From the IMG/VR virus record IMGVR_UViG_3300034110_000490, positions 1 through 33,382 of that record: DNA of 33,382 nucleotides; one strand, 5' to 3'. Below the pieces are notes generated by a model. It worked only from the letters and a program-made list of their open reading frames with translations. It did not search any database and was not told the origin of the DNA. Shown here piece after piece: positions 9,077 to 24,511 of the stretch (within the stretch, counting starts at the first letter, position 1; the number at the start of each line of letters is the position of its first letter). A program made the position numbers and the translations under genes. This DNA comes from a virus.

Positions 9077-9100
9077 TTCAATTCCTCAACGCCACGCCAA

Positions 9101-9140
9101 TAAAAGGGCTCCCCCGGCCGGCGTTTGAACCGAGAGAGCC
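9101..9140 (-). terminator. Terminator between tail tube and chaperone genes
   Basis: On the minus strand an 11-bp stem (GGCTCTCTCGG with CCGGGGGAGCC, two G-U pairs) closes a 12-base loop and is followed by CTTTTATT. It lies 9 bases after the tail tube stop and 25 bases before the gpG start. It would allow tail tube mRNA to exceed the downstream tail genes. Confidence 0.75.
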
Positions 9141-9148
9141 AAAAGGGT

Positions 9149-10069: not shown

Positions 10070-10092
10070 TGGAGCCTCCTATTCGCGGGCAT

Positions 10093-10115
10093 AAAAAAAC
10101 CCGCTCGAGGCGGGG
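10093..10115 (-). terminator. Terminator upstream of the tail tube gene
   Basis: On the minus strand CCCGC and GCGGG pair around CTCGA and are followed by seven Ts. It lies between the stop at 10137 and the tail tube ribosome site. It shares the 18-base block GGGCATAAAAAAACCCGC with the terminator before the tape measure gene. Confidence 0.75.
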
Positions 10116-10136
10116 TTGGCTGGCCCAATGGGCTGA

Positions 10137-10823
10137 TTATTTCTGGTCGAATCCGACAGGACCGCCACAGCACATGCAGTTGATGCGGAACCGGTCAGCG
10201 TTCACCAGGAGCTGCGAAGCGATGCCCAGCCCCATGCCGGCAGCCACATACTTTCCGTTGCGCAGTTCCATTTTCAGCGACCAGTTCGTCGCGATTTTAT
10301 TATTGATCGAGGCTTCCTTGATGAGCGCTTCGTTGACGTAGACCGCGCCATCCACCACCACGAACGGTTGGGACTTTTCGTCCACATCTAGATCGCCGAT
10401 ACGAACACGCAGCACTCCATCGTGAAAGATCCTGATCTCACCACCGACAATGCCGATCCGTGTTCCTGCTACCTTCGATTTCTGGATGCGGGCGTCGGCC
10501 TCTTCCTGAGTTTCCGGTCGAACGTAGGTCAGCGTGGTGCGATAGTCCGAACCGTCACGATCAAACGAGAAGTCCTCGGTCTTAAACTCAGCACTATCGC
10601 GAAACTCAGCCGGGATCTTCGCCAGCTCCGCGCCGATGAATGCGTAGCGCTCGATGCCGTTGGCCGGCAGCTCGCTGTCTGGCCACTCGCCTGCCGTGAT
10701 GGCGATAGGGCACGGATCAGGCTGTCGCCCCATGGAAGAGCTTGGGTAGTTGACCTCCAATTCATTGGTGTCCTTGTTGAGCTTCCATCCGGAGACGCCC
10801 GGCACGTAATCTGCGCTTTGCAT
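10137..10823 (-). CDS. Virion protein with J-type C-terminal modules in rearranged order
   Basis: A 228-residue protein between the tail terminator and tail tube genes. Four segments match the C-terminus of the J protein of this window: YVPGVSGWKLNKDTNELEVN (6-25), EIRIFHDGVLRVRIGDL (129-145), VVVDGAVYVNEALIKEASI (155-173) and NWSLKMELRNGKYV plus MGLGIASQLLVNADRF (180-212). In J the order is the last two first. A middle part (31-125) has no J counterpart. Nucleotide similarity remains, for example ACGAACACGCAGCAC is shared exactly (65-79 and 10401-10415). It is presumably a tail fibre or tail-decorating protein. The start with GAGGG upstream was preferred over the longer frame. Confidence 0.7.
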   Translation of the reverse strand: MQSADYVPGVSGWKLNKDTNELEVNYPSSSMGRQPDPCPIAITAGEWPDSELPANGIERYAFIGAELAKIPAEFRDSAEFKTEDFSFDRDGSDYRTTLTYVRPETQEEADARIQKSKVAGTRIGIVGGEIRIFHDGVLRVRIGDLDVDEKSQPFVVVDGAVYVNEALIKEASINNKIATNWSLKMELRNGKYVAAGMGLGIASQLLVNADRFRINCMCCGGPVGFDQK

Positions 10824-10831
10824 TTTCCCTC

Positions 10832-11227
10832 TCAGCCGGCGCGAAACCGGATGTTGACGTTGATTTGGTAGAAGCCCTCGAACTCGCCGGCGACCACTTG
10901 GCTGGCTTCCATGCATTCGAGGTCGCCGGACATCCAGTAGGCGAAGTGCGCTTCGAGCGCGTCGGCCAGTTCGTTGATGGCTTTGGTCCCGGTTCGCTCG
11001 CGGGCGAAGCACTGAATGCTGATCTGCCCGGGCTTGCGGGTATGCGGTCGGTCGGCCATGCCAGCCATGAATGCCGAGCCGTACTGGATATTCAGGCGGC
11101 ACCAGAGGCCGGTCGCCGGCGGCGTGAAAACTTCCGGCTGGTTCGGGTAATCGATCCGCGCTTGGTCAATACCGGTGAAGGCCACCATGCGCGCGGTGAT
11201 GAGCGCTCTGATCTGCTCGAAGGTCAT
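10832..11227 (-). CDS. Tail terminator-like protein (DUF4128/gpU position)
   Basis: A 131-residue protein with the start MTFEQIRALITARM and a core WCRLNIQYGSAFMAGMADRPHTRKPGQISIQCFARERTG, which fits the DUF4128 group seen in the tail terminator position. It should cap the tail tube at its head-proximal end and join it to the connector. It overlaps the preceding gene by four bases (ATGA). Function rests on order: neck protein, tail terminator, tail tube. Confidence 0.7.
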   Translation of the reverse strand: MTFEQIRALITARMVAFTGIDQARIDYPNQPEVFTPPATGLWCRLNIQYGSAFMAGMADRPHTRKPGQISIQCFARERTGTKAINELADALEAHFAYWMSGDLECMEASQVVAGEFEGFYQINVNIRFRAG

Positions 11228-11604
11228 CGAAAGTCCTCCGACACACCGATGAAGGTTATGCCGTAGATGCCTGCCGGAGCTTGGCCCGAGTGACCATTCT
11301 CCAAGCGTTCGGCATATGGCAGGTTGTTCTGGATGTAGACGACGGTGTAAGGCTTGAGCGCTGACAACGCGGCAATCCCTTCCGCCCTAGTCTCGGCCCC
11401 ATCCTTGTCCACCTCGAGGGTGGTGGAGAACACCGGTGCGCCGATGCTGACGATGTTGTTCCGCCGAAAGCGTCCGGTATCGACGGGCGATCGACTGATG
11501 ATTTCTCCATGCATCGCCGTCGCGATAGCGCGGACTCGCTCAACCAGTGCATCCTCAACCTCATCCATGAATAGTGAAGGCGGAACACTCCAGCCCTTCG
11601 CCAT
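11224..11604 (-). CDS. Neck / tail completion protein, HK97 gp10 or gpZ-like
   Basis: A 126-residue protein. The segment MHGEIISRSPVDTGRFRRNNIVSIG (about 31-55) carries the SPVDTGRFR motif typical of HK97 gp10-like and lambda Z-like neck proteins, and the C-terminus YIQNNLPYAERLENGHSGQAPAGI is the usual second conserved block. It joins head and tail. One-base overlap with the preceding stop (TGATG) and ATGA overlap with the next gene show tight translational coupling. Confidence 0.82.
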   Translation of the reverse strand: MAKGWSVPPSLFMDEVEDALVERVRAIATAMHGEIISRSPVDTGRFRRNNIVSIGAPVFSTTLEVDKDGAETRAEGIAALSALKPYTVVYIQNNLPYAERLENGHSGQAPAGIYGITFIGVSEDFR

Positions 11605-11987
11605 CAGACGGCCCTCAGTTGGAGTTGATAGTGGACCTTGGCCGGGTCAGTTTTCACCGGCAGTAGGTCGAAGGTTTTCAACTCCCCAGTGATGGGGTCT
11701 TTCGCGGTGATCTTGTGGCCAGCGCTCGGCAGATCCGTGACTTCATTGGTCAGCACGATCAGCAGCGAGTCAGTCGAAAGTATGTTGACGTTATCGATCT
11801 GCTCGAGCTTGTAACGGGTGAGGACACCCCGACCGGTGTAGGTCACCGTCTGTGCGGTCGTTTCCTCGGTGACTGGGTCGTATACACCCGGTCCGAGGTA
11901 CGTCCCCGTGAAATCGGTCATTACTTCGGCAAACGCCGTGTCGAACAGCGCCCCGAAGGATGACTGCATGGTATCTCTTAGGCCCAT
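11604..11987 (-). CDS. Head closure / head-tail connector protein
   Basis: A 127-residue protein in the stopper position. It contains TYLGPGVYDPVTEETTAQTVTYTGRGVLTRY and ILSTDSLLIVLTNEVTDLPSAGHKITAKDPITGELKTFDLLPVKTDP, a beta-rich pattern like lambda gpFII or SPP1 gp16 type head closure proteins. Relatives are sometimes mislabelled as glutamate 5-kinase; no kinase motif is visible. The ATG lies ten bases inside the preceding gene with a GGAGGG ribosome site. Confidence 0.65.
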   Translation of the reverse strand: MGLRDTMQSSFGALFDTAFAEVMTDFTGTYLGPGVYDPVTEETTAQTVTYTGRGVLTRYKLEQIDNVNILSTDSLLIVLTNEVTDLPSAGHKITAKDPITGELKTFDLLPVKTDPAKVHYQLQLRAV

Positions 11988-12991
11988 GAGCCCTCCTGCT
12001 GCCGAATCGGCACCATTGAGTATTCAGCGATACAGCGGCATCGCGCTCGCTCGGTGAGAGGCGCGCCAAGCGATGAGTCGCATGGAAACATCAGCATTGC
12101 GCCGCGCTGGGTGATGAATGGCTGATCGGCTTGGACTGTTTGTCCATCTGTCGCGGCGTGACTGTCGCGCACCTTCTCATCTCGGCGAGAGCGCCAGGTC
12201 TTTATGAAGGTCAGGCGGCCCTTGCTGCGCTCGACGATCTGTCGCCATGCCTGATCGCGGCCCTCATTGAAGGCTTCTGCAACATACGTCTGGGCGATCA
12301 TCTCAGCCTGAGTTGCCAGAAGCCTGTCAGCGTAACGGCCGACGATCTTGCTCACGTCTTCGGCCTTGAGTGTCCGGCCTTCTCTGATGGCAGATTCGAC
12401 CGTTGCGTCAAAGCGGCGATCACGCCGAACTCGAAGCAAGTATTTTTTCATTTCGGTTGCGTTGCCGCTGAGCAGTTGCGTCCTCGCGTTGGCCACGCTC
12501 TCGGCGAAGTTTCCGCTGAGCCCCACAACTCCGCCCGAGCGCTTGCCTGTTTGCTTGCTGATCCGGCCGATCAAATCGAGTGCAGTTTTGCGCGACGACT
12601 GCCCACTGGCTTGGCCGGCATGCAAGATCGCGCGAACCGCCCTCGCCTCATCAATCGCGGCCTGATCCTGCAGCGAGCGAGCCTGCCCCGACAAGAACGA
12701 CGAAACGTCAGGTGCATGAAGATCCAGATCCTTCGACAGCCCGGGAGCCTTGATCCCTTTTGCCTCGGTTTTTGCGCCCTTGAGGTATGCGGCGCGGATC
12801 AACTCCATAAGGCCGGCGAAGAGGCCGATCGGAAGCAGCGCCGCTACCTTGTCTTCGTCACCATCATCGATCGCCCTCTCGATCTCCGCCAATGTTGCTG
12901 CGCTGACCGTGTCGGCGATCTGATTCAGATAGGCACGCTGCGCGGCAGGCTCCATGCCTTGTATGGCGAGAATCGCTTCTGATGCGTTCAT
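11978..12991 (-). CDS. Minor head protein, Mu F / SPP1 gp7-like
   Basis: A 337-residue protein. Its C-terminal domain shows the Mu F signature: WRSRRDEKVRDSHAATDGQTVQADQPF, then MLMFPCDSSLGAPLTERARCRCIAEY. The N-terminal half is helical. Such proteins bind the portal and enter the prohead, where they help DNA packaging or ejection. The start MNASEAIL overlaps the previous stop as ATGA; a start eight codons upstream is also open. In many phages this gene lies next to the portal, while here it lies behind capsid and connector genes. Confidence 0.8.
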   Translation of the reverse strand: MNASEAILAIQGMEPAAQRAYLNQIADTVSAATLAEIERAIDDGDEDKVAALLPIGLFAGLMELIRAAYLKGAKTEAKGIKAPGLSKDLDLHAPDVSSFLSGQARSLQDQAAIDEARAVRAILHAGQASGQSSRKTALDLIGRISKQTGKRSGGVVGLSGNFAESVANARTQLLSGNATEMKKYLLRVRRDRRFDATVESAIREGRTLKAEDVSKIVGRYADRLLATQAEMIAQTYVAEAFNEGRDQAWRQIVERSKGRLTFIKTWRSRRDEKVRDSHAATDGQTVQADQPFITQRGAMLMFPCDSSLGAPLTERARCRCIAEYSMVPIRQQEGSWA

Positions 12992-13512
12992 ACGACGAAC
13001 ACCGCGACTCCGCACGCAGTCTTGCAGCCCAGCAGAGGAGCAACCAGCTCGTCGACCACTGTTATGACTGGTCGGGTTGGCACCCCGCCGGAGCCGGGCG
13101 CGGCCGACTGGTACTCGATTTCCAAAACGTCGACCTTCTGCCGCTTGATAGCGTTGGTAGCGACGTAGTCCGGGCTTAGGCTGCCCGGTGCGGCGATCTC
13201 TCGCAGCGCCGCCTCATACGTCGCCTGCTCGATCTCCGTCGGGACCTCATCGGCAGGGATCGCACTACCTTCGTTGTCCGTTGCTCCGGTGCGCGGCCAC
13301 TGCAACGCTTGCGCCCTTCCACCGGTCTTGCTCCCGGAGAAAAGCGATTCCCAGCGACCGCAGGCGTTCTGGAACTGGTATTTGCCATCAATGTAAGCCG
13401 ATGCCCGGATCAGCGCGGCCTGCTTCGCCAGGTCATCGCCGGCCCACGCGGCATTCGCGCGCGCAGCGTGATAGGCGTCGGCAGCTGCGACGGTTCCGTA
13501 AAAGTCTGGCAT
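12988..13512 (-). CDS. Head-tail adaptor-like protein (DnaT-like family by name)
   Basis: A 174-residue protein with YGTVAAADAYHAARANAAWAGDD, LIRASAYIDGKYQF and LQWPRTGATDNEGSAIPADEVPTEIEQATYEAAL. This is the family often labelled DnaT-like ssDNA-binding protein, but its constant place after the capsid gene points to a head-tail adaptor. No DNA-binding role is suggested here. The ribosome site (GAGAT) is weak and there is a 50-base gap before it. Confidence 0.72.
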   Translation of the reverse strand: MPDFYGTVAAADAYHAARANAAWAGDDLAKQAALIRASAYIDGKYQFQNACGRWESLFSGSKTGGRAQALQWPRTGATDNEGSAIPADEVPTEIEQATYEAALREIAAPGSLSPDYVATNAIKRQKVDVLEIEYQSAAPGSGGVPTRPVITVVDELVAPLLGCKTACGVAVFVV

Positions 13513-13562
13513 CGGGATATCTCGAATAGGTGGAGCGTCATGCGCTCCGGTTTTGCGGGGTG

Positions 13563-13955
13563 TTATGCCTTGGCGGCGGCCAGTGCAGCTTGCAGGGCTT
13601 CCAGATTTGCTTCGGCGTCGAACTCAACGTTCAGCGCCTTCAGCTCGTCGATGACCTTCTTCTTTTCGGCAGCGGCAGCAGCCTCGGCTTCTTCCAGCTT
13701 CTTGCGCAGGGTTTCGACTTTGCTGTTGCCAGCGGCATCGATGCCAAGTGCCTTCAGCTTGGCGAGCAGTTCGGCCTTTTCTTCACCGTCGGCGGTAGGC
13801 GCCTTGCCATCGACGCTCATGAAGGCGAGACGCGATGCGCCTTTGTGCCCTTCTGGCGTCAGGTCAAGGTCTTGCGTCTCACCAGGAAGAACATAAACAA
13901 CGCCAGCCGTGGTGTGCACGCCCTGAAGCGCCTTCGAGTTGTTGGTCACTTTCAT
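13563..13955 (-). CDS. Small protein with two HeH/LEM-like repeats
   Basis: A 130-residue protein behind the capsid gene. Residues 1-45 form a small beta domain (KALQGVHTTAGVVYVLPGETQDLDL). The rest holds two similar units, LLAKLKALGIDAAGNSKVETLRKKL and VIDELKALNVEFDAEANLEALQAAL, which look like HeH or SAP-type helix-extended-helix motifs. A perfect AGGAGGT ribosome site lies seven bases before the ATG. Proteins of this make are frequent next to capsid genes in siphophages and may be head components, but the role is unproven. Confidence 0.6.
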   Translation of the reverse strand: MKVTNNSKALQGVHTTAGVVYVLPGETQDLDLTPEGHKGASRLAFMSVDGKAPTADGEEKAELLAKLKALGIDAAGNSKVETLRKKLEEAEAAAAAEKKKVIDELKALNVEFDAEANLEALQAALAAAKA

Positions 13956-13967
13956 GTCGACCTCCTA

Positions 13968-14930
13968 TCAGGCTGCTGGTGGGGTGATTTCGTCGAGGTA
14001 CGCCACGGCGCCCGGCAGACGAATCTCGGTGCCGCCGGTACGCGCGATGATGCCGGTCTCGAAACCCATGATGGACTTCTGACGCGGAGCCAGAACGCGG
14101 CGCGGCATTGGCAGGTGGAAGCGAACCACCTCCGGATCCTTCCGGTACGCAACCAGGCGACCACCACCATCAGCGGAAGCATTGCGGGCCTCGCGCAGGG
14201 GCGCGATGTCCAGCGGCTGATTGGTCTCTGCCGTGTAGATGTTGTTCTTGCGCAGGTAGTCCAGCACGGTCATGAAGCCATCACCAGCACCCATGCGACG
14301 AGTCGCAATGTGACGGAAGGCGTCGGGCGGAAGACGCAGCGTGTCGGCCCATTCAACCTCACCAGTGTTGGTGCGGATGCTACCCAGAACACCGTTGACG
14401 TCGTCCAGGATCTGATCCGGCGTTTTATTTGGCCAGAACGTCGAGCTGCCGGTACCGGTCGAAGCAGCGTCGACGCGGGAAACGTTGCCGTCGTTCAGCA
14501 GGCCGGTCCAGCGCTTTTCGGTGCTGCCGACGAATGCGATGGAGTTCAGCAGGCGCTCAACCTTGTCAGCGGCGGAATCCGCCTTAGTGCCGCTCAGGTT
14601 GATGCCGTACAGCTGTGCCTGGTTCACCTCTTCCAGATTCCACTCCCAGCCGGAGCCGATCATCGCGAAGTCGTGCGATGCCTGATCGTGGGTCGCTGAG
14701 TTGAACGGCATATCCGTGCCGGATCCGGACAAGAACTTCGCTTCGCCGGCGGTATCGACGGTGAAGAAGGTGGTGCCGATGGCCCACGGCGCGCCCTCGG
14801 TCACAACCGGGATGCTTGCCGCATAGTTGAACGCTGGGTAACGGCGCGTGTAGATGCGGGTTTCGATGTTCCGGCCTTGGGCCAGAACAAACGGGAACGC
14901 CGACTGAGCGTCTTCAAAGACTTGAGGCAT
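13968..14930 (-). CDS. Major capsid protein, DUF2184 type
   Basis: A 320-residue protein with the DUF2184 capsid pattern: FEDAQSAFPFVLAQGRNIETRIYTRRYPAFNYA near the start, NGAWEWNLEEVNQAQLYG-like motif in the middle (here GSGWEWNLEEVNQ, about 93-105), and VVRFHLPMPRRVLAPRQKS near residue 270. It should form the icosahedral shell with an HK97-like fold. The start MPQVFED has GGAG eight bases upstream; the previous stop overlaps this leader. It sits directly after the cement gene, the normal order for this module. Confidence 0.88.
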   Translation of the reverse strand: MPQVFEDAQSAFPFVLAQGRNIETRIYTRRYPAFNYAASIPVVTEGAPWAIGTTFFTVDTAGEAKFLSGSGTDMPFNSATHDQASHDFAMIGSGWEWNLEEVNQAQLYGINLSGTKADSAADKVERLLNSIAFVGSTEKRWTGLLNDGNVSRVDAASTGTGSSTFWPNKTPDQILDDVNGVLGSIRTNTGEVEWADTLRLPPDAFRHIATRRMGAGDGFMTVLDYLRKNNIYTAETNQPLDIAPLREARNASADGGGRLVAYRKDPEVVRFHLPMPRRVLAPRQKSIMGFETGIIARTGGTEIRLPGAVAYLDEITPPAA

Positions 14931-14931
14931 G

Positions 14932-15411
14932 TTAAGCGCTCCGATGTTTGAGGGAGATTTCGACGATGTCGCCGTTCGCACCGGTGGTGTCGAAGAAGGC
15001 GCCCGGGATGAGCACAGCGCCAGCGGCAGCAGTGGTCACGTAGCGATTGGTGGCGGCGACGTAGTACACGTCGTCACCTGGCACCACCGCAGCGCCGGCA
15101 GTGACATACATCTGGCCGTCGGTCATGAAGGCGCCGGTGAAGTCCTGCGGATAGCCGTCGATGAGCGTGGAGCCGGTAGCAACCGGTGGAACCGCAGCGC
15201 TCAGCACGGCCAGCCCGAGGAACAGAGTGCCGGTGGCAGCGATCTTGTGATCGTTGCCTGCACCCGCAACGCGGAAGCCCGGTGCCCCGAAGACAATGCC
15301 CTCGGCGTTCGAGACGGTGCGGCTGATCTTGTTGCACTTCTCTTCGTTGGCGACCAGGCCGGGCACGCCCTTGGCTGGAGCGCTGGTGTACGTGGTTTGG
15401 TAAGTAGCCAT
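14932..15411 (-). CDS. Head decoration / structural cement protein
   Basis: A 159-residue protein starting MATYQTTYTSAPAKGVPGLVAN, with SNAEGIVFGAPGFRVAG and a glycine/alanine/valine-rich beta C-terminus (GAFMTDGQMYVTAGAAVVPGDDVYYVAAT). This is the structural cement family encoded directly before DUF2184 capsids. It should bind the outside of the expanded capsid and stabilise it. GGAG lies eight bases before the ATG. Confidence 0.78.
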   Translation of the reverse strand: MATYQTTYTSAPAKGVPGLVANEEKCNKISRTVSNAEGIVFGAPGFRVAGAGNDHKIAATGTLFLGLAVLSAAVPPVATGSTLIDGYPQDFTGAFMTDGQMYVTAGAAVVPGDDVYYVAATNRYVTTAAAGAVLIPGAFFDTTGANGDIVEISLKHRSA

Positions 15412-15422
15412 TGCTGTGCTCC

Positions 15423-15977
15423 TTATGCCTTCGGCAGGTGGGCGGTTTGCATGTCGGCAATCATCTGCAGACGCGCTTTTTCCGATTCATCGCCGACGGT
15501 CTTGCCGTCCTGCTGAATCATGTGTTTGCGGAACGGGTCGCCGGCCGGATCTTTGGCGGCGTCTTCGACCAGAATCTCGAAGCGCGCGTCGATGTAGGCG
15601 TCAGCTTTGCCGGCGACGGCCGCATCACCCAGTTTGGCGACCACGACAGCCTTGCGGATGTCGGCATCGGTCTTGCCGGTGTAGTCGGCATCGGCGATGG
15701 CTTTGGCCTTGCTGATCAGGTCGGCGCGGGCGGTGACGCGCTTATCGATATCGGCGTCGCTGAGCTGCTTGGCCTTGAGGGCGTCGATCTCGGCGTCTTT
15801 CTTCGCCAGTTCGCCATCCTTCAGCGCCAGCACAGCGGTATGCGCGTCGGTCAGGGATTTGATGTTTACCCCGGCATCGGCCAGCTGCTTGGTCAGCTTG
15901 TCGATCGCCTGGGCGCCTTGGTCGGTCGTCTGGACGGACAGGCCATCAACGATGACCGTACGCAGTGAATCAGCCAT
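15423..15977 (-). CDS. Nested in-frame scaffold protein (lambda Nu3-like arrangement)
   Basis: Within the protease/scaffold gene an in-frame ATG (MADSLRTVIVDGLS) is preceded by AAGGAGG seven bases upstream, a far better ribosome site than expected by chance inside a coding region. Translation from here would give a 184-residue helical protein lacking the protease. Lambda C/Nu3 shows the same nested layout. Production of the short form is predicted only. Confidence 0.6.
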   Translation of the reverse strand: MADSLRTVIVDGLSVQTTDQGAQAIDKLTKQLADAGVNIKSLTDAHTAVLALKDGELAKKDAEIDALKAKQLSDADIDKRVTARADLISKAKAIADADYTGKTDADIRKAVVVAKLGDAAVAGKADAYIDARFEILVEDAAKDPAGDPFRKHMIQQDGKTVGDESEKARLQMIADMQTAHLPKA

Positions 15978-16553
15978 GTCATGGCCTCCTTGGGGGGTGT
16001 GTGGTTTATGGTCACCGATGCGAAGGTGCTCGCCACCCCGAGCGCGATGCTCAAGGCTGAGGTGATTCATTTTCATGGGGCCGAGGAAGCAGTCGTACTG
16101 CTCGCCCTCGGGGGAAACGCCATCCTGAAACACGACCTCGGCGCCGTAGCCCATGGACAGCTCGCGCTTGCCGGACTCGTAGTCCTCGATCGCCTTGGCG
16201 TCCATCAGCACCAGCGGCACCTTGACGAACTGCCCGTCGCGGACAACCTCGCCACCGGTTTGGCCGATCGCGACGTCTTTCCAGTTCTTGGAGTTGACGC
16301 CGTCCCCGCCCGGGTGGCCGTTGGTCATTGGCCGGTAGGCATACGAGTGCATGGCGTCAGCGTGGAAGACCGCGCTCTCTGGCCGGTACACACGAACGAT
16401 TGGCTTATCCCGCAGGCCGTGTTCGTTGTCCGGGTCGATCTCGGTACCCAGATAATCCTGAATACCGGTGCGCGCGACTCGGGCCTCGGCCACCAGATAG
16501 CCGTCCTCGGTGCGCCGCACTCCCGTGACTGGCACGGAGTCGGTGAAGATCAT
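15423..16553 (-). CDS. Prohead protease with C-terminal scaffold, DUF2213 type
   Basis: A 376-residue protein. The first 170 residues are a DUF2213 domain, thought to be a capsid maturation serine protease. Candidate active residues are H80 in MTNGHPG, S133 in RELSMGYGAEV and H164 or E168 in NHLSLEHR; this is inference. Residues 193-376 are helical and charged, with IDALKAKQLSDADIDKRVTARADL and a C-terminus MQTAHLPKA, as in scaffolds. A second start at residue 193 could give the scaffold alone. It overlaps the portal gene by four bases. Confidence 0.8.
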   Translation of the reverse strand: MIFTDSVPVTGVRRTEDGYLVAEARVARTGIQDYLGTEIDPDNEHGLRDKPIVRVYRPESAVFHADAMHSYAYRPMTNGHPGGDGVNSKNWKDVAIGQTGGEVVRDGQFVKVPLVLMDAKAIEDYESGKRELSMGYGAEVVFQDGVSPEGEQYDCFLGPMKMNHLSLEHRARGGEHLRIGDHKPHTPQGGHDMADSLRTVIVDGLSVQTTDQGAQAIDKLTKQLADAGVNIKSLTDAHTAVLALKDGELAKKDAEIDALKAKQLSDADIDKRVTARADLISKAKAIADADYTGKTDADIRKAVVVAKLGDAAVAGKADAYIDARFEILVEDAAKDPAGDPFRKHMIQQDGKTVGDESEKARLQMIADMQTAHLPKA

Positions 16554-18349
16554 GGGGCGAGCTCCTCGAAGATCTCTGGACCCAGCTCAATCGCGCCACG
16601 GTATGGCTCGACCTTGTCGATATCGACGCTGCCGGGTTCGTAGGTGAAGGTGATGTGGGGCTGATAGTCCGGCCAGTCCCAAGAGGCGCCAGCCTCAACG
16701 ATGGAGACGTGCCGCCAAGCCAGTTCGGAGCTGTTGAACAGCAGCACCACCGCGCCTTCGCCGAACTTGTCGATCAGCCTTGCACCACCTGGTGCAATCT
16801 TGAGCTGACCCTTGCCATCGCCCGACCACGACTCGCCGACCTTCATCCAATCCACCGGGTTGCGGCTGTAGGCGACGGTGACGTGCAGGTCAGCAGCAGG
16901 GACAGTTGATTCGAAGCCCTGCGACTTGGCCCACGCGATGATCTCGGCGCCGTTGATGACCTTGCGGGATACATACAGGGAGCGAGGCGCGGCGTCAGTG
17001 ATCGCTTTCTTCGCCACCGGCTGATCCGCAGCGGTGCCCGGCAGGTCGGCGTCGCCATCTTCGTCATCGGGCAGCTCGCGGCCGAACTTCTCGATCGCCG
17101 ATTCCAGACCCGGCATAACGCTCAGCTCGACCAGCAGGTTCACTGCGGCGGTCGAGAGCGCATCCTCAGGGAACAGCCCGGAGTCTTTCAGCGCCTTGAT
17201 GGTGTCCGCCGTGGTCTTGCCGATATCGGCCCGCTCTTTCGCCGTGGCCTGCCAGAGTGGCGCCCAGGTGTAGTGCACCTCTTTCGGCCGACTGCCGAGC
17301 GCGGAGCGGATCAACCCTTCGTCCAGCACGCTCATCGCTGGCTTGATCTCCAGCTTCTGGCGTGACGCGACGTTGTCGTAGTAGTTGCGGGTGTTCTCTT
17401 CGCCATTGGCGCCGAGCCCCGTCGAGGACTGACCGAACATGCGCGTGCCGGGGATATCGAAAGCGCCGGCGACGCCCTGCTCTGTCTTGGCGATCACCTC
17501 CGGCAGGTTGCCGAAGCTGGCCGACTTGGAACTGTGCGTCTCCTGTCCGTCGAGGATCAGCGTCCCGTTGATGCCTTTGGCAGTGGCAGCGAGACGCAAG
17601 CGCTCCAGCAGCAGGCGCTCGTAGTTCTTGTCCTGCATGCTCGACATCAGATTGGGGATGTTGATGACGTCGATCTTGGCCTCGTAGACCAGGCTGACCA
17701 CGTTGGCGACCGTCTCGTCGTAGTGACGCACAGCCGGCATGGCCGATAGCAGCACCGAGTCGCCCCAGCCGAAGCCAGTGCCTACGGCAAGCTCGGAGTC
17801 TGGATGCGGCACGCCGACGAAGATGACAAGACGCGACGGGTGAATCTCCACCGTCGAACCGGGCAACCGGTAGGCCTTGGGCTTCCCAAAGCGTGGGCTT
17901 TGCGGATCCTGCTCGATCTCCGTGGCGCTCAATTGGCGGCGAGTCATCACCGTCAGGTACTTGATGCCACCCTTCCCGACTCGATCCGGCTTTAGCTCAG
18001 ACGCCGTGTCACGCTCACCGGTGCCGATGAACACCGCAGCCCCGCCGAACAGGCGGGCGTTCAATAGGGCCTCCAGAATCTTGCCCTTGACGTTCAGGCG
18101 ATCCTCTTCGGCTTCGATCAGCTCGATCTGAGCTTTGTCGGCCTGCCAGTTGCGCCAGTTGCGGCACGCGTCTACGGCCGGGATGCTCACGCCCTTCTGC
18201 GCCGTCCACGATCCACGGAAGGCGTTCAGCAGTTGCTGGTCGTCCATCACCGGAAGTGCATAGTGCGAGTGCGATGCCTTGTCGCGCGCAGTGCCCAGTC
18301 CTGCGACCAGGTTCTGCAGGCTGTCTTTCAGATAAGTGAATGCGCTCAT
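16550..18349 (-). CDS. Portal protein (DUF1073) with C-terminal Acb1-like anti-CBASS domain
   Basis: A 599-residue protein. Residues 1 to about 430 are a DUF1073-type portal, with WTAQKGVSIPAVDACRNWR, LLNARLFGGAAVFIGTG and FDIPGTRMFGQSSTGLGANGEEN. The portal forms the ring through which DNA passes. From about residue 450 a second domain begins (SLYVSRKVINGAEIIAWAKSQGF) with two HxT motifs, H489-V-T and H565-I-T, and a WPDYQPHITF segment. This matches 2H phosphoesterases of the Acb1 family, which degrade cyclic oligonucleotides of CBASS immunity. Both histidine-threonine pairs are intact. A linker rich in D and P joins the parts. Whether the domain is active or released is unknown. Confidence 0.87.
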   Translation of the reverse strand: MSAFTYLKDSLQNLVAGLGTARDKASHSHYALPVMDDQQLLNAFRGSWTAQKGVSIPAVDACRNWRNWQADKAQIELIEAEEDRLNVKGKILEALLNARLFGGAAVFIGTGERDTASELKPDRVGKGGIKYLTVMTRRQLSATEIEQDPQSPRFGKPKAYRLPGSTVEIHPSRLVIFVGVPHPDSELAVGTGFGWGDSVLLSAMPAVRHYDETVANVVSLVYEAKIDVINIPNLMSSMQDKNYERLLLERLRLAATAKGINGTLILDGQETHSSKSASFGNLPEVIAKTEQGVAGAFDIPGTRMFGQSSTGLGANGEENTRNYYDNVASRQKLEIKPAMSVLDEGLIRSALGSRPKEVHYTWAPLWQATAKERADIGKTTADTIKALKDSGLFPEDALSTAAVNLLVELSVMPGLESAIEKFGRELPDDEDGDADLPGTAADQPVAKKAITDAAPRSLYVSRKVINGAEIIAWAKSQGFESTVPAADLHVTVAYSRNPVDWMKVGESWSGDGKGQLKIAPGGARLIDKFGEGAVVLLFNSSELAWRHVSIVEAGASWDWPDYQPHITFTYEPGSVDIDKVEPYRGAIELGPEIFEELAP

Positions 18350-19665
18350 TGGCCGCTCACGTTTGCGAGTGTGTAGGAGTTTGCGAGGCCGTACCGCTGG
18401 GCGATCATGTAGCCCATCGCATCCACCATGTGGTCGAACCCGCCTTTCTTGTCAGGGTCGCCTTTCTTGTCATAAACCTGCCGTTCAAGGCACTGCGTCA
18501 GCTTCGGACACTGGTCAATGTTGACCTTGTAGCGGCGCTCGCCGTAGGCGTTCAGGAACATGGCGTTGACTGCGTTCACGCGGTCTTTCACGCCCGGGTT
18601 CGTCGAATCGACGTACACGGCAAAGCCTGCCGTGCGAAGCAGCGACAGATCGGACTCGCTCGCGTTTTTGCTGCTGGTGTTCTGGCCGCTGGCATCCGGA
18701 TACACCGCGATGCTGTGCCCTGGGAACCGCGCCTTGATCTTCTCGATCATCTCGGGCGTGTCGCGCACCGCATGGAACTCGTCGAGCGCCAGAGGCAGGC
18801 CGTTACGGACCACGTTGACGACCGCAGACATCTTCATGACGTTGAAGTCGATGCCGATGTGCAGTGCTTCACCGGGCTTGATCCGCTCGGTGGTGCGGCA
18901 CTCCTCTCGGTTGAAGGTGTAGTAGACGACGCCCTGATAGTTCTCGAAGCTCGCCTCGTATTCCTGGCGGAATGTGCGCGGGTCCATCTTGCGGCGTGCC
19001 GCTTCGATCTCTTCCGGAGGGACGTTGCCCCCATCCACCGAGGTGTAGAGCCAGCTCTTGTGGTCAGGCTCGTTACCGGGCCGGCCATCCTGAAACGTGT
19101 CGTAGCAGTGGTTGAATCCCTTGGGTGTGCCGATGCGTAACGCGTGGCCACCCTTGCGCATGCCAATGCCCGGTATCGAGTATTGGCAGGTGGAAAGCAT
19201 CGGGCGGAGGACTTCTTCCCATGCTTCCCATGGGCAGTCCGCCCATTCATCCACCAGAACGAAGAACAGACCGGAGCCGCGCAGATTGTCGTAGTTGTCG
19301 AGACCCACCACGCGCATGACGTGGCCAGACTTGAGCGTGATCGAGCATTCCGTTTCGTTCGGGCGGTGTGCACGCCACGCTTCAGGGATCGCCTGCTTCA
19401 GCCGACGCCAGAACACGCGCTTGGCCTGCTTGAAGGTCGGCGCGCCATACCAGATCTCATCTTCGACGCTCACACCCCATTCAGCAGCGAGTCGAGCAGC
19501 TCGGCGCATTTCAGCTTTGCCCAAGAACGTCTTGCCGAACCGTCGACCACACACCGCATCGCGGAAGCGCGCCTGAGGCTGGAAGCCCCAGCAATAAATG
19601 TTCGCCTGCTTCGGCGTCAGCTTTACCGGCGGGTCATAGGTACGGGGTAGCGGGGACATTCTCAT
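18346..19665 (-). CDS. terL: Terminase large subunit
   Basis: A 439-residue packaging motor ATPase and nuclease. The Walker A motif GRRFGKT lies at about residues 40-46 and the Walker B strand FFVLVDEWAD near 130-140. The nuclease domain shows HIGIDFNVMK, YPDASGQNTSS and DHMVDAMGYM, the acidic triad positions of the RNase H-like fold. The start MRMSPLP was chosen because GGAG lies just upstream; MSPLP two codons on is equally possible. It overlaps the small subunit gene by about 30 bases and the portal gene by four. Confidence 0.93.
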   Translation of the reverse strand: MRMSPLPRTYDPPVKLTPKQANIYCWGFQPQARFRDAVCGRRFGKTFLGKAEMRRAARLAAEWGVSVEDEIWYGAPTFKQAKRVFWRRLKQAIPEAWRAHRPNETECSITLKSGHVMRVVGLDNYDNLRGSGLFFVLVDEWADCPWEAWEEVLRPMLSTCQYSIPGIGMRKGGHALRIGTPKGFNHCYDTFQDGRPGNEPDHKSWLYTSVDGGNVPPEEIEAARRKMDPRTFRQEYEASFENYQGVVYYTFNREECRTTERIKPGEALHIGIDFNVMKMSAVVNVVRNGLPLALDEFHAVRDTPEMIEKIKARFPGHSIAVYPDASGQNTSSKNASESDLSLLRTAGFAVYVDSTNPGVKDRVNAVNAMFLNAYGERRYKVNIDQCPKLTQCLERQVYDKKGDPDKKGGFDHMVDAMGYMIAQRYGLANSYTLANVSGQ

Positions 19666-20110
19666 CAGGCTCCAGGGTGTACTCAGCAACGGCGTGCTGC
19701 TGGTCCGCTTGGGAGCCCAGAGGTTTTTCAGGTTCGAGGCGACGATTCACGTAAACGTCGCCCACTTCTTTGGCTGCCTGCTCCAGCAACTGGGCAGTCA
19801 GCGCCATGTTCTTCATGTTCTCGGCCTTCTCGGCCATGCGCCCCAAGGTGCGAAGTCGATACGCTCGGTTGGCGATCGGGATCTCTGCCGTCTCTTCCCG
19901 AAACCTCTTGCGGGTGTCGTTGAACAGCGTCTGCCACTTCACGTGCAGGTTGCGTCCAACGTACTTGGTTGGGTCGTATGCCTCGCACTGCTGGCGGGTA
20001 ACTTCGAGCCCAAATCTTTCTTTGACGGACGCCACCACTTGCGATGGCGTGTCAAAGCAGGCGAGAGCCTGTACGACAAAGGCTTTCACCTCGTCTCTGA
20101 GTGCGGCCAT
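19634..20110 (-). CDS. terS: Terminase small subunit, DUF2280 type
   Basis: A 158-residue DNA-recognition subunit. It begins MAALRDEVKAFVVQALACFDTPSQVVASVKERFGLEV, a helix-turn-helix region typical of DUF2280 terminase small subunits, and continues with YDPTKYVGRNL and RFREETAEIPIANRAYRLRTLGRM. The C-terminal helices should mediate ring formation and contact with TerL. The order TerS, TerL, portal is standard. A cos or pac site was not identified. Confidence 0.85.
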   Translation of the reverse strand: MAALRDEVKAFVVQALACFDTPSQVVASVKERFGLEVTRQQCEAYDPTKYVGRNLHVKWQTLFNDTRKRFREETAEIPIANRAYRLRTLGRMAEKAENMKNMALTAQLLEQAAKEVGDVYVNRRLEPEKPLGSQADQQHAVAEYTLEPDENVPATPYL

Positions 20111-20140
20111 AAGTGGGCATCCGTCAAAGTACTGTCAAAG

Positions 20141-20764
20141 TCAGGCCGACTTGAGCAGACAGGTTCCGCAGGCCCTCGATATGTTCAATTTCCCCACCTC
20201 GGCAGGACTGTTTGCAGCGTCCACCAGCTCTTGCACTTGAGTGCTTGCACCATACCGACGCACTACACCTACGAACTCTTCAACGTCATGCCCACGCATC
20301 TCAAGCTTGGGCAATCCTTCCTGGGTGAACTTGGGTGCGCCGTACTGATCGGTCGCTTGAGCGATGTGATAGAGCTCATGCTCGACCAGTGCGCAGAAGT
20401 CAGCGTCGGAGCAATCCGCGCAGTAGTCGGCAGCCAGGGTGATGATGTAGGCCGGCACGTCGCCGAACCAATCCAGCATCTGTTGTTCCATTCGGGCCTT
20501 CTGCCAGCCACCGGCGCGGAACGCTACCTGCTCGGCTTGACCGACTACCGTGCGCCCTTTCTTCGTGAAGGCGGCAGACGCCCACATCACTCGAATGTCC
20601 GCATCGATCAGATGTGCGTGGTCTTCGTTGTAGACGCTGCCGGTGTCAGAGAGGATCTCGGTCTGGAGCCACTCCCACACTTCAGGCGCTGGGATCAGGC
20701 GGATACCGAAGCTGGACATCTCAGACGTGTTGAGCAGTGATTCAGGCGGCATTGGTCGATTCAT
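20141..20764 (-). CDS. Putative phage metallopeptidase
   Basis: A 207-residue protein with an HExxH zinc site, H129-E-L-Y-H133, in CALVEHELYHIAQ, and further conserved GWQKARMEQQMLDWFGDVPAYIITLAADYC before it. This matches the phage putative metallopeptidase family encoded near terminase or lysis genes. A role in virion maturation or host takeover is not established. The start MNRPMPPE has GGAG five bases upstream. The C-terminus ends in a CGTC pair. It is the first gene of the packaging block after the lysis genes. Confidence 0.75.
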   Translation of the reverse strand: MNRPMPPESLLNTSEMSSFGIRLIPAPEVWEWLQTEILSDTGSVYNEDHAHLIDADIRVMWASAAFTKKGRTVVGQAEQVAFRAGGWQKARMEQQMLDWFGDVPAYIITLAADYCADCSDADFCALVEHELYHIAQATDQYGAPKFTQEGLPKLEMRGHDVEEFVGVVRRYGASTQVQELVDAANSPAEVGKLNISRACGTCLLKSA

Positions 20765-20823
20765 TTCATCTCCATCCGCCCACTCAACTAAGATCAGTTG
20801 CACTCAACAAGGGAAATCCGTAA

Positions 20824-21021
20824 GTGAGCCATCGCATTGATGAAACAGCTGTGTTGAAGGCCGCATCAGAATGGGCGGAGCGAACCGGGAGGAACACCGA
20901 GACGGTAAGCTCAACCGCTCAGGACGTCATGGTCAGGCTTAAGTCCAAGCTCACTGCTTCCGAATATCAGGGAGCGCTCAAGCAGCTTCATGTTCAATAC
21001 AAGAGAGGCATTGGCTCCTGA
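20824..21021 (+). CDS. Plus-strand small hypothetical protein
   Basis: A 65-residue helical protein (SHRIDETAVLKAASEWAERTG..., TASEYQGALKQLHVQYKRG) read against the late operon, starting with GTG. AAGGGA lies nine bases upstream. It sits head to head with the metallopeptidase gene and tail to tail with Rz1. No family is recognised. It could be a moron, but codon evidence for such a short frame is modest. Confidence 0.45.
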   Translation: MSHRIDETAVLKAASEWAERTGRNTETVSSTAQDVMVRLKSKLTASEYQGALKQLHVQYKRGIGS

Positions 21022-21024
21022 CCA

Positions 21025-21064
21025 GTGTCGCGACACAATTTGCACTCTCGCGAAACGTGTCGCG
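21025..21064. repeat. GTGTCGCG dyad pair between the small plus-strand gene and Rz1
   Basis: GTGTCGCGACAC at 21025-21036 is a perfect 12-bp palindrome and ACGTGTCGCG follows at 21055-21064; CGCGACAC and GTGTCGCG also pair as an inverted repeat with a 20-base loop. The same core occurs twice in the 13-bp inverted repeat at 28072-28107. Confidence 0.5.
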
Positions 21065-21066
21065 TG

Positions 21067-21333
21067 CTACTTGCTCTGACTGCGCTTGATCTGCGCGTCC
21101 ACCTGATCTGCGCAAGTGTCGAGCAGGTTGATGGCTTGGTTCTTCAGCTCCCACAGCTGGCCGTTGTCGGCGAGGTCTTCATCAGCTACCCGCTCGCAGG
21201 GCACCAGCTCAGGGGGTTCGACTCTTACTGCCGCTGTCTTTGTTACCACTGGCGGCTTTCCCGCGCAGGCCGTCAGGCAGAGGCTGAGCAGCCCAATCAC
21301 GAACAGGCTTGCTGTTGCGTTTGAGTTCTTCAA
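21067..21333 (-). CDS. Rz1: Rz1-like outer-membrane spanin lipoprotein
   Basis: An 88-residue lipoprotein with an N-terminal signal (SLFVIGLLSLC) and lipobox LTAC, the lipidated cysteine being residue 23. It starts with TTG, preceded by GGAG at seven bases, and lies in another frame across the end of the Rz gene, overlapping it by 125 bases. The mature part contains a proline segment and two further cysteines. It should pair with Rz to fuse inner and outer membranes in the last step of lysis. Confidence 0.85.
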   Translation of the reverse strand: MKNSNATASLFVIGLLSLCLTACAGKPPVVTKTAAVRVEPPELVPCERVADEDLADNGQLWELKNQAINLLDTCADQVDAQIKRSQSK

Positions 21334-21595
21334 AGTTCTTCTCCGCCTTTCTGGCTTTGGCCTGACTGGCCTGTAACCGCTTGTTCAGGTCTTTCTGGTA
21401 ATCGGCGTTGCGCTGGGCTTCGGCGCGCAGTGTGGTGATCGTGGCTTGGCTTTCGAGGTTGGCGTCCACCGCCTTCTTCTTCTCGCTGGCTTCGAATGCC
21501 ACCTCCCCGCGAAGGGCGACGACGCGCGACTGTTGAATCCCAATGAGCAGCAGGCCGACCAGGGCGATGATGATTGCAGCAGCGAAGGCCTTCAT
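21209..21595 (-). CDS. Rz: Rz-like inner-membrane spanin
   Basis: A 128-residue protein with one N-terminal membrane helix (AAAIIIALVGLLLIGI, about residues 4-20) followed by a long periplasmic coiled coil (EASEKKKAVDANLE... to about residue 100), the standard i-spanin layout. The start MKAFAAA overlaps the holin stop as ATGA. The Rz1 lipoprotein is encoded within its 3' part. It spans the periplasm with Rz1. Confidence 0.85.
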   Translation of the reverse strand: MKAFAAAIIIALVGLLLIGIQQSRVVALRGEVAFEASEKKKAVDANLESQATITTLRAEAQRNADYQKDLNKRLQASQAKARKAEKNFEELKRNSKPVRDWAAQPLPDGLRGKAASGNKDSGSKSRTP

Positions 21596-21915
21596 GCGGC
21601 ATCCGCCTTGCGACCGAGGAAGCGGGTCACCAGCTCGCGAATGGCTGTCACGCCGAGGAAGCCGATCGTGCCACCGGCAGCGATCGATAGGCTTGAAGGC
21701 CAGGCCATCCACTCAATAACGCTGGACGCGACCAGACTCAGCGATCCGCAAATCAGCGCCTCGAAAATGATCCGGCGCACGCTGGTTTCTTTTCCGTCGT
21801 AGATGACGCGAAGCAAGCAAACGGTGATGGCCATGATGACGCCCGCCATTAGCGGATTGCTCAACGCCAGCCAGAGCTTGGCCCATGTGTCTGGCTTGTC
21901 AGGCATGTTTGGCAT
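21592..21915 (-). CDS. Phage holin
   Basis: A 107-residue membrane protein with probable helices at about residues 21-38, 51-66 and 72-92, the last containing GGTIGFLGVTAI. The sequence ALICGSLSLVASS and basic C-terminus RELVTRFLGRK fit the HP1-type holin family. It should permeabilise the inner membrane to start lysis. Two starts three codons apart (MPNMPDK) might give two forms, as in other holin genes. A GGGGGAGG ribosome site lies eight bases upstream. No endolysin gene is next to it. Confidence 0.8.
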   Translation of the reverse strand: MPNMPDKPDTWAKLWLALSNPLMAGVIMAITVCLLRVIYDGKETSVRRIIFEALICGSLSLVASSVIEWMAWPSSLSIAAGGTIGFLGVTAIRELVTRFLGRKADAA

Positions 21916-21997
21916 CCGGGTTGCCTCCCCCTTGGGGAGATTGATAAATCCGGCGTCCGCTGCACTCCCAGCTCGGGGCAATGGGTGTGGGGAGCCG

Positions 21998-22027
21998 AAA
22001 ACGATAAGCCCCTGCGAATGCAGAGGC
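21998..22027 (-). terminator. Possible terminator before the holin gene
   Basis: On the minus strand GCCTCTGC and GCAGGGGC form an 8-bp stem (one G-U pair) around an ATTC loop, followed by TTATCGTTTT. It lies about 80 bases upstream of the holin start. Confidence 0.5.
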
Positions 22028-22292
22028 CCTGAATAGGTGCGCTCGTCTTTCCGAGCTGTCGGCCAAAGACTTTCCCAGCGTCGACGCCCCTTTGCATCGA
22101 TCTCGCTGTTCCTGTCTCGCGCCACCCTGAAAGCATTGTGAGGTCAGGGTGCACGGGCTGCCGGCGTTGATCCGTGCGTCGCACTATCCGGCTATCGACG
22201 TCCAGGCCTTCCCGAAGGCTGCCCTGGCTACAGGTGAAACTTGGTACATCTGGGAAAGCATCCACTTGGGTAGCGGCTTTCCTCGGAGGTAC
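22028..22292. other. Gene-poor stretch upstream of the holin
   Basis: No convincing gene was found on either strand in this stretch. An 8-bp inverted repeat CACCCTGA/TCAGGGTG (22123-22151) is present without a T run. Open frames here lack ribosome sites and recognisable proteins. It may be the leader of the lysis transcript or remains of a lost gene. Confidence 0.4.
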
Positions 22293-22633: not shown

Positions 22634-22666
22634 TCGGCATTCCTTCTGGTGGTTTTCTTTGGACAA

Positions 22667-22694
22667 TAAAAAACCCGGCACGGTGGCCGGGTTT
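22667..22694 (-). terminator. tR'-like terminator just downstream of the candidate late promoter
   Basis: On the minus strand AAACCCGGC and GCCGGGTTT form a 9-bp stem with a 6-base loop followed by more Ts. It lies about 40-65 bases after the predicted transcription start, which would stop late transcripts unless RNA polymerase is modified. Confidence 0.85.
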
Positions 22695-22736
22695 CGTTCG
22701 TCAGTCCTACACACGCAGGAATGACAGGATGGGTGA

Positions 22737-22766
22737 ATAATGCGACATGGCGACATGACATTGCAA
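22737..22766 (-). promoter_or_regulatory. Candidate late promoter (PR'-like) with tandem repeat in the spacer
   Basis: On the minus strand TTGCAA (-35) and CATTAT (-10) are 18 bases apart. The spacer contains CATGTCGC twice in tandem (22742-22757). In lambda and phage 21 the Q-binding element overlaps the late promoter in the same way. It lies 20 bases after the stop of the Q-like gene and before a terminator. Confidence 0.6.
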
Positions 22767-22785: not shown

Positions 22786-23466
22786 TTATGCCGCCTCGCC
22801 TTCCAGCACTCCAACCGCTTCAAGCATGTGCTGCGCCTCGACCAGAGCCTCGTTCACAAGTGACTCCAGGCCGTCCTTGATGGCCTTGTTCCAGCGCTGG
22901 TAAGTGCGCTCTGTAAGCCCTTGGGAATCCCAGTTCGTCATGTCGTAGTTCGAGTCGGCCAGGACGATCATCTCGCCGGGCTTGTCCTCTGCTACCGCGC
23001 GCGCATGCTTGTTGGCCCGGGCGACGTCAGCGTCCGCTGCCGCGTTGCGCCAATCCCACTGCCCCTCCTCCTTGTTCTCCCGGTGTTTCGGCGCCTTGAT
23101 CTGGGCAACCGCTCGCTGAATGCCCTTCACCTGCTGCGGCACCGCCCACACCAAGACGGCCTGTTGCGTGAAGCGCTGCGGTGCTGGGGTCTTCACCACG
23201 GCGACCAGCCGGCCGATGGAATCGATCTTGCGACCACGGTGCGTGCTGTACTTCGCCACTAGGGCGTTCCAGTGCCTCGGGGAAAGCTGGGCGTGCAGGA
23301 GCTTGTGCACGATGCAGTCAGCCAACAGCGCGGCATCCTTCCCGGATATCTCGCCCTTGAGCTTGCTGGCCTGCACCCGGGGCTCGACGTTGCATCCGCC
23401 GGAACTGTTGATCGTCTCGGCTGCCAAGGCCCGGACTACGGCGGAAATCACGTTGCGATAGGTCAT
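22786..23466 (-). CDS. Candidate late antiterminator, Q-like
   Basis: A 226-residue protein ending the early operon after ninG. It begins MTYRNVISAVVRALAAETINSSGG and contains LLADCIVHKLLHAQLSPRHWNALVAKYSTHRGRK, a helical pattern seen in phage Q-type proteins, and WNKAIKDGLESLVNEALVEAQHMLEAVG at the C-terminus. The placement after nin genes, directly before a promoter-plus-terminator and the lysis genes, is that of lambda Q. Several terminators inside the late operon give it a purpose. Sequence similarity alone is weak, so the function is mainly positional. It overlaps ninG by four bases. Confidence 0.6.
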   Translation of the reverse strand: MTYRNVISAVVRALAAETINSSGGCNVEPRVQASKLKGEISGKDAALLADCIVHKLLHAQLSPRHWNALVAKYSTHRGRKIDSIGRLVAVVKTPAPQRFTQQAVLVWAVPQQVKGIQRAVAQIKAPKHRENKEEGQWDWRNAAADADVARANKHARAVAEDKPGEMIVLADSNYDMTNWDSQGLTERTYQRWNKAIKDGLESLVNEALVEAQHMLEAVGVLEGEAA

Positions 23467-24113
23467 GCTGCAGCCCTCTTCAGTTCGCGGGTCTTAGCCC
23501 GGTAGTCGGCGGTGATCGCCTTGAGTTCTTCTACGGTGTGCTTGCGCGGTTCGTGGTCTGCTTCGAGCGCTTCAACAGCCTCCAGACCGATGCGGGCAAT
23601 CAAACCGGTGCGGAATCCTTGCGAAACCGTCTGGCCCTTTCTGGCGTACTTGGATGACCCGGCATTGCAGCTCTTACACTGCAACCAGATGTTGTTCGGC
23701 ACCAGCCGCAGCTCGGGCCGTGCGCCCTTGCCAAGGAAGTGGCCGGCATCGAACGCACCTCCAGTCTTCCAGCCCTGCGCCGCCAGAATCGATTCCTGCG
23801 ACTCGCCGCAGCTCATGCAACCGCTGCCGATGCTCAGCTCATAGGTGCGCCGATAGTCGCGCACAGCCTTCTCGGCATCCTTGAGGTGATCGCCGCGACT
23901 TTTCAGGGCCTCTTTGCGGACCTTGATCTCGCGGCGACCGAGCTGGGCGATCGCCTTACTGGCTCTCTCGCTATTCGCCGGCGCAATGGCCAGCGCACAC
24001 TTCGGACTGCAAACCGCTTGCCCCAAGCGCTGCGGCTGGAAGCTGATGCCGCACGCTGGGTTCTTGCACTTCTTCGGCTTCGGGGCCTTCTGTTCCTTGA
24101 TGGCGGTTCGCAT
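23463..24113 (-). CDS. ninG: NinG recombination protein
   Basis: A 216-residue protein of the lambda NinG (Rap) family, a Holliday-junction or branched DNA nuclease that supports phage recombination. Zinc ligands appear in CKNPACGISF and AVCSPKCA at the N-terminus and CMSCGESQES in the middle, followed by GGAFDAGHFLGKGARPELRLVPNNIWLQCKSCN, a His-Asn nuclease-like core. The start MRTAIKEQ has GGAGG nine bases upstream and overlaps the ninB stop by one base. Confidence 0.88.
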   Translation of the reverse strand: MRTAIKEQKAPKPKKCKNPACGISFQPQRLGQAVCSPKCALAIAPANSERASKAIAQLGRREIKVRKEALKSRGDHLKDAEKAVRDYRRTYELSIGSGCMSCGESQESILAAQGWKTGGAFDAGHFLGKGARPELRLVPNNIWLQCKSCNAGSSKYARKGQTVSQGFRTGLIARIGLEAVEALEADHEPRKHTVEELKAITADYRAKTRELKRAAA

Positions 24114-24511
24114 CAATACCGTCCTCCCCACTTGTCCTGCTCAGTCCAGCGAACGTCATGCTCGGCGCCAAAGGCATGCATCAACTCGAACAGATCGCTG
24201 AACCACTTCTGCGACTGCTTGCGGGTCGATACGGCCATCACCACGAAGCCGCCATCGAGGCCAGGCTCCGCGCGCTGCTTCTCCAGCGAGGCACTGAAAA
24301 GGCACTTCCAGTCCTCACTGGTCAGCTTCTTGCCGTGCCAGATCACTTGCTCGGATACGTCCTTGAGCATTGCCCACATCTTGCGGTTGCAGACGTCAGG
24401 GCGCTTCTCGTCCTTGATGACCACGATCTTGGGCTTGGTGAAGTCGGTTGCATGCAGGACGCCCATGAGGCGGCTGATATCGCGTTGGCTGCGGATTGCG
24501 AACTCGTTCAT
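24113..24511 (-). CDS. ninB: NinB recombination protein
   Basis: A 132-residue protein of the lambda NinB (Orf) family, a single-strand DNA-binding recombination mediator that can replace RecFOR. The segments KMWAMLKDVSEQVIWHGKKLTSEDWKCLFSASL and VMAVSTRKQSQKWFSDLFELMHAFGAEHDVRW are the conserved core. It lies between the C39-like gene and ninG with four-base and one-base overlaps, so the three are translated together. Confidence 0.88.
   Translation of the reverse strand: MNEFAIRSQRDISRLMGVLHATDFTKPKIVVIKDEKRPDVCNRKMWAMLKDVSEQVIWHGKKLTSEDWKCLFSASLEKQRAEPGLDGGFVVMAVSTRKQSQKWFSDLFELMHAFGAEHDVRWTEQDKWGGRY

Follow-up and report, generated by a model that had tools for sequence, protein, structure and literature searches.

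A probable family of Q-type late-gene antiterminators in Pseudomonas phages, associated with a tandem repeat of 8-bp period in the putative late promoter

The sequence under study, referred to below as the window, is the whole of the IMG/VR virus record IMGVR_UViG_3300034110_000490 (33,382 bases), and the locus of interest lies on its minus strand (Table 1). The gene order is lambdoid: a CI-like repressor is encoded on the plus strand at 29019-29834, replication genes lie between this and NinB, and NinB and NinG precede a gene for a protein of 226 residues (stop codon at 22788-22786), which is therefore placed, as is expected for a Q-type gene, between the nin and replication genes on one side and the lysis, head and tail operon on the other. 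Elsewhere in the window, a stretch matching PHROG 513, labelled transposase (20144-20803, minus strand), lies near the large terminase gene, where one would expect a small terminase subunit, and there is a tRNA match (Rfam, 43.2 bits) close to the record end at 32821-32890 (plus strand).

Table 1 Features of the window, with promoter positions numbered taking +1 as 22730.
Feature	Position in window	Strand	Remarks
Late genes: holin, Rz-like spanin, terminase, portal, head, tape measure, tail fibre	47..22125	-	downstream, same strand
Second terminator-like site	22006..22029	-	further along late leader
Proteo-phage-1 RNA (Rfam RF03044)	22156..22233	-	75.4 bits vs gathering 42; in late leader
Intrinsic terminator with T run, tR'-like	22664..22695	-	stem 22695-22670
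Leader RNA hairpin	22699..22726	-	between candidate pause site and terminator
TGCG, candidate pause site	22714..22717	-	+14 to +17
-10-like CATCCT, candidate sigma-dependent pause element	22726..22731	-	-1 to +5; conserved
-10-like CATTAT	22737..22742	-	read directly
Candidate binding element copy 2, ATGTCG (inside CATGTCGC 22742-22749)	22743..22748	-	-18 to -13
Candidate binding element copy 1, ATGTCG (inside CATGTCGC 22750-22757)	22751..22756	-	-26 to -21
-35-like TTGCAA	22761..22766	-	read directly; conserved behind relatives
Q-like antiterminator gene (putative), 226 residues	22786..23466	-	PHROG 3412 ('unknown function'); Foldseek top match AlpA 7xya_G
Predicted DNA-recognition helix, codons 186-192 (ERTYQRW)	22891..22911	-	residues in or next to helix best predict repeat
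NinG gene	23463..24131	-	PF05766 E 5e-41; directly upstream of 226-residue gene

The -35-like TTGCAA begins 19 nt past the stop codon of the 226-residue gene and is separated from the -10-like CATTAT by 18 bp, in good agreement with the initial annotation, which had placed a promoter with an 18-base spacer about 20 bases behind the gene. Between these two elements, again as had been described there, an 8-bp sequence, CATGTCGC, occurs twice (22757-22750 and 22749-22742), the two copies abutting head to tail and the final C of the second forming the first base of CATTAT. The 16-bp repeat occurs just once in the window, 0.03 occurrences being expected when up to two mismatches are allowed. The match of the promoter to consensus is weak (8 of 12 positions), which is why a consensus promoter scan requiring at least 9 of 12 does not return it.

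Downstream, the initially transcribed region contains CATCCT, a -10-like sequence that may act as the pause element expected of a Q-type system, followed by the candidate pause site; polymerase engaged by the Q protein of phage 21 (21Q) arrests at +14, and the lambda pause is at +16/+17. The leader has a predicted folding energy of -30.4 kcal/mol (z -5.6). An early intrinsic terminator, as would be needed for Q-type control, is also present, its stem and T run extending from +36 to about +65, so that the strong terminator previously suggested at about 40-65 bases downstream is borne out. The Proteo-phage-1 RNA, which is of Rfam type sRNA gene and is found also in L001, L030, L038, L047 and L077 (L numbers being used here for individual relatives), lies between the putative Q-type promoter and the holin gene, where an antiterminated polymerase would transcribe it.

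Relatives of the 226-residue protein are known from 62 phage records, which with a single exception are named Pseudomonas phages, as well as from many IMG/VR contigs; they include orf84 of phage D3 and a gene of F10, and those members that were examined are 175-238 residues long. The family is present in 88 of 349 Pseudomonas genomes and in none of the 368 other genomes of the class that were searched. For the member in phage PseuP_222 the existing annotation reads 'transcription regulator, anti-termination', and an antitermination protein is mentioned for the cluster in the paper on that genome (PMC10305613), so that the functional guess is not wholly new; a literature search, with most subscription journals outside its scope, found no description of the promoter or of the family. 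A 98-residue protein of phage MD8 that is annotated 'antitermination protein Q' (L102:1167-1463) was also weighed as the true Q and rejected, as its match is to PHROG 5085, for which no function is given, and it hits no antitermination family; in the window there is no room for such a gene, NinG abutting the 226-residue gene. In many relatives (e.g. L014, L097, L106, L171) gene and late promoter overlap, the TGA stop forming part of the -35 sequence, TTGACA or TTGACN.

Conservation of the repeat was assessed in 102 clusters of relatives (at 90% identity), using a stretch of 76 nt starting at the stop codon, and 20 dinucleotide shuffles for comparison. A perfect 6/6 direct repeat at a period of 8 bp is found in 65 of the 102 clusters (shuffles: mean 1.05, maximum 3), and one with at least 5/6 matches in 88 (shuffle mean 17.9), other periods from 6 to 14 being at chance level in these clusters except for period 9 at 5/6. 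This period-9 signal (63 clusters) was considered as a possible binding element in its own right, but was traced instead to ATCCTG...TTCCTG in the leader. Besides ATGTCG in the window and GCAACA in D3, the repeated words include TGGCCG, TGAGCG, TGAGCC, TGAGCA, TGATCA, TGAGAA/G, TGGCAG/T, CGAACA, CCATCA and TTGCCG; the word may thus change completely from one subfamily to another, and yet the period, the position and the identity of the two copies are kept. It is hard to reconcile this, or the cluster statistics, with the notion that the repeat arose by chance or selfish duplication and that the terminator just ends the early transcript after the 226-residue gene, and although the terminator is real and terminators behind early operons are common, such an explanation is scarcely credible. 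A search for the window element beside the same gene family elsewhere, which had been proposed as a check, was likewise positive: of 97 exact copies in IMG/VR, 93 are preceded at 17-31 nt by a family gene, whose product in every case has TERTYQRW, the others being three that are too near a contig end to tell and one with the gene about 0.5 kb upstream. Two Pseudomonas relatives, L268 and L346, have repeats of TGAGCA, which is the phage 21 word, in conjunction with a protein of unrelated sequence.

The features of the leader are conserved as well. Of 84 clusters, 71 have T[GA]CG at +14 to +17, a frequency to be set against about 0.8% in letter shuffles, and an intrinsic terminator occurs within +110 in 61 of 76 relatives (1.8 expected), beginning mostly at +32 to +44. 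The hairpin is kept in relatives while its sequence changes, with a mean z of -2.0 over 74 distinct leaders and at least 8 of 9 arm positions paired in 61% of leaders, as against 8.8% in shuffles; these pairs were counted by script, because in a MAFFT alignment of the leaders the 3' arm was misplaced owing to variation in the loop. Its role could possibly lie in preventing backtracking, in retention of the ring, in RNA stability or in pausing. Rfam matches to rnk_pseudo and anti-hemB over the leader scored far below gathering and were rejected.

In three groups of relatives no terminator directly follows the hairpin, its place being taken by other conserved sequence that seems to encode small membrane proteins. 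The first group comprises L009, L030, L033, L063, L073, L088, L095 and L343, the second L038, L069, L071 and L309 (L038 having terminators some 300 nt further on) and the third L047, L052, L062, L077 and L086. The suggestion that a tRNA might replace the terminator in L009, L030 and L343 was dismissed, as ARAGORN found none there, and the sequence that follows resembles a small membrane protein gene. In D3 and its relatives tRNA genes do occur directly behind the late promoter (L097 3184-4008, L104, L112, and L372 at about 2510-2600), the tRNA-like sequence in L372 being located between hairpin and terminator.

Co-variation of protein residues with the word was examined by regressing pairwise repeat similarity on identity per protein column (n=189), with N-terminal identity held constant. 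The best predictors among the 189 columns are residues 187, 185, 193 and 190, all inside or next to the predicted recognition helix and reached in none of 500 permutations; residue 220 scores too. When the set was reduced to 32 sequences of less than 70% identity, the top five columns (191, 185, 187, 197 and 193) all fell in the same helix, only the first of them exceeding every permutation, and at 60% N-terminal redundancy, with only 14 sequences left, no column was significant. Numbering the helix residues E-R-T-Y-Q-R-W as positions 1-7, Arg at position 2 goes with G at base 3 of the word (TGGCCG, ATGTCG, TTGCCG) and Ser, Gln or Lys with A, while Tyr at position 5 goes with A at base 5, and Glu or Asp/His at position 6 with altered bases 1-2. 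Exceptions are L166 and part of L345, which read TGTCCG. On a helix, positions 2, 5 and 6 point to the same side.

A tree built from N-terminal columns was used to compare clades, and separate clades have Arg at position 2 with TGGCCG, or Ser or Gly with TGAGCG, TGATCA or TGAGCA; the Arg/TGGCCG pairing occurs within clades that otherwise have Ser or Gly in L269 (beside L267, L268 and L272), in the L286 group and in the L164 group. On this tree the helix class and the word change with similar frequency, in 32 and 28 steps, and tree-based independent pairs are nearly all in the right direction, though too few for significance. The codons of the helix are only about 0.15 kb from the promoter, and recombination could move the two together; linkage is nevertheless unlikely to be the sole cause, since the signal peaks at the helix and not at the nearer C-terminus. 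From this co-variation we infer that the protein would bind the repeat, which has the expected location for a Q-binding element between -35 and -10.

Some of the promoters are displaced. In members lacking a repeat immediately behind the gene, the sequence beyond was searched for the word that the helix would predict, and this was found in full promoter context in L149 (GCAACA, +519), L165 (TGGCCG, +496), L247 (TGAGCG, +510) and L255 (TGAGCG, +65), of which three are true predictions, the displaced promoter of L255 having already been seen before the test. In L101 (PS-1), L176 and L279 the word was not found downstream and no recognisable element is present there, while for L342 only about 0.5 kb of downstream sequence was to hand. 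These results bear on the idea that some other host or phage protein binds the repeats, the 226-residue gene being a mere neighbour associated by co-inheritance. With only about 20 nt between the end of the gene and the promoter, the two would recombine together; neighbourhood of this kind would not, however, concentrate the co-variation in recognition-helix columns, nor link substitutions of a single helix residue to one and the same base change in different clades, nor have promoters displaced by about 500 bp still fit the helix, and we regard it as very improbable.

As regards fold, the window protein as modelled by AlphaFold (pLDDT 78.6), when compared with the PDB using Foldseek, gave AlpA (7xya_G) as first match (probability 0.99) and lambda Q as fifth, while for the D3 relative (pTM 0.76) the list was headed by both AlpA structures, with probability 1.00 and TM values of up to 0.59, lambda Q being sixth. 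The E-values of these matches are only about 0.1 and the rmsd large, so that the predicted AlpA fold amounts to support, not proof. By sequence, a PDB search with the 226-residue protein gave no match, searching PDB sequences with a profile (E up to 10) brought up no antiterminator (21Q and AlpA 7XYA/7XYB being absent), and Pfam gave no antitermination match at E up to 0.1 for the protein itself or at E up to 1 for the F10 and MPK9 members; by the searches made, the protein thus cannot be assigned on sequence to any of the families of 21Q, lambda Q, 82Q and AlpA. It might still be argued that it binds the tandem repeats as an ordinary activator or repressor of initiation, with the terminator incidental, given that a helix-turn-helix protein located between -35 and -10 could act on initiation and that co-variation speaks for binding alone. 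That the terminator would block the way to the late genes, that the -10-like and pause-like sites are conserved and that the predicted fold is the AlpA/Q fold rather than that of a classical regulator all make this improbable.

Among known systems the closest in layout is PR' of phage 21, where, between -35 and -10, a 6-bp word is likewise present twice, in direct repeat at 8-bp spacing; there the Q protein binds TGAGCA repeats, with C at positions -21 and -13 (PMC6606751). A -10-like element in the initially transcribed region, a terminator downstream and helix-turn-helix recognition (predicted here) are further likenesses, whereas there is no detectable sequence similarity to 21Q, and the larger protein, the many repeat words and the conserved leader hairpin are all unlike phage 21. 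AlpA of Pseudomonas aeruginosa (PMC7969949, PMC9371919; PDB 7XYA, 7XYB), the best fold match, shares the host genus, the downstream terminator and an element between -35 and -10. Its -10-like element CACGAT, substitution of which impairs antitermination (PMC9371919), is at the same position (-1 to +5) as CATCCT in the window, both having A at +1 and T at +5. However, one AlpA molecule binds one 6-bp ABE core (GGGACG; putative motif GGGACGN5GGTA), in contrast to the two equal copies seen here; neither the window word nor those of relatives is GGGACG, and no sequence similarity to AlpA was found.

In lambda the Q gene similarly follows nin genes, and the late control of lysis, head and tail genes from PR' is paralleled by what is proposed here, but lambda Q (7ubn_Q) is a weaker fold match than AlpA, shows no sequence similarity and gives no Pfam match, and the tandem repeats are as in phage 21. 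The 82Q family (Pfam Phage_antitermQ), to which neither the window protein nor its relatives have a Pfam match, occupies the functional slot proposed here, as ORF61 does in Pseudomonas phage YA3 (PMC7326022). GafZ of the Caulobacter gene transfer agent (PMC11150451) also has an element between -35 and -10 and shares the terminator bypass proposed here, its element being an inverted rather than a direct repeat.

Q-type late control is supported by the way in which the gene order, the tandem element, the -10-like element at +1 and the pause-like site join in agreement with the early terminator, the late operon downstream, the AlpA-like predicted fold and the co-variation of repeat and helix. Accepting this, we consider it highly probable that the 226-residue protein is a late-gene antiterminator working like phage 21 Q and Pseudomonas AlpA. 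The lambda-type control originally envisaged is thus supported as to Q-type action, on grounds of layout, co-variation and fold, but not as to a lambda layout, the arrangement being that of phage 21 and AlpA. We infer the start site, the pause, binding and its stoichiometry, readthrough and a nozzle mechanism as follows: sigma-70 RNA polymerase would start at about 22730 on the minus strand and would be held on CATCCT by sigma region 2, with the RNA end near +16 (TGCG); one copy of the protein would then be passed to the RNA exit channel, which its N-terminal part would narrow, and polymerase so loaded would ignore the terminator at 22695-22670 and later ones and transcribe the lysis, head and tail genes.

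A more ambitious proposal, put forward tentatively and, taken as a whole, rather doubtful, is that the recognition code can largely be read, base 3 of each half-site apparently being specified by helix position 2, base 5 by position 5 and bases 1-2 by position 6, and that through its diversification at least a dozen late-promoter specificities have come to exist in nature. The leader hairpin, lying between pause site and terminator, would on this view help in loading, perhaps by keeping polymerase from backtracking or by holding the ring on the RNA. No description of such a code or of a loading-assisting hairpin was found in the literature searched.

The present analysis proposes a function for PHROG 3412, including orf84 of the classical phage D3, and the paired repeat would mark the late promoter of these phages. 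To our reading this is one more Q family, in which numerous specificities occur naturally, and it adds to the case that Q proteins unrelated in sequence share one fold. Within it there are also natural protein pairs whose N-termini are nearly identical but whose DNA words differ; the L147 and L179 types, for example, are close relatives in their N-terminal part and yet have TGAGCG and CCATCA. Since such pairs exist, promoter choice by Q proteins and the limits on cross-activation between co-resident prophages become directly testable.
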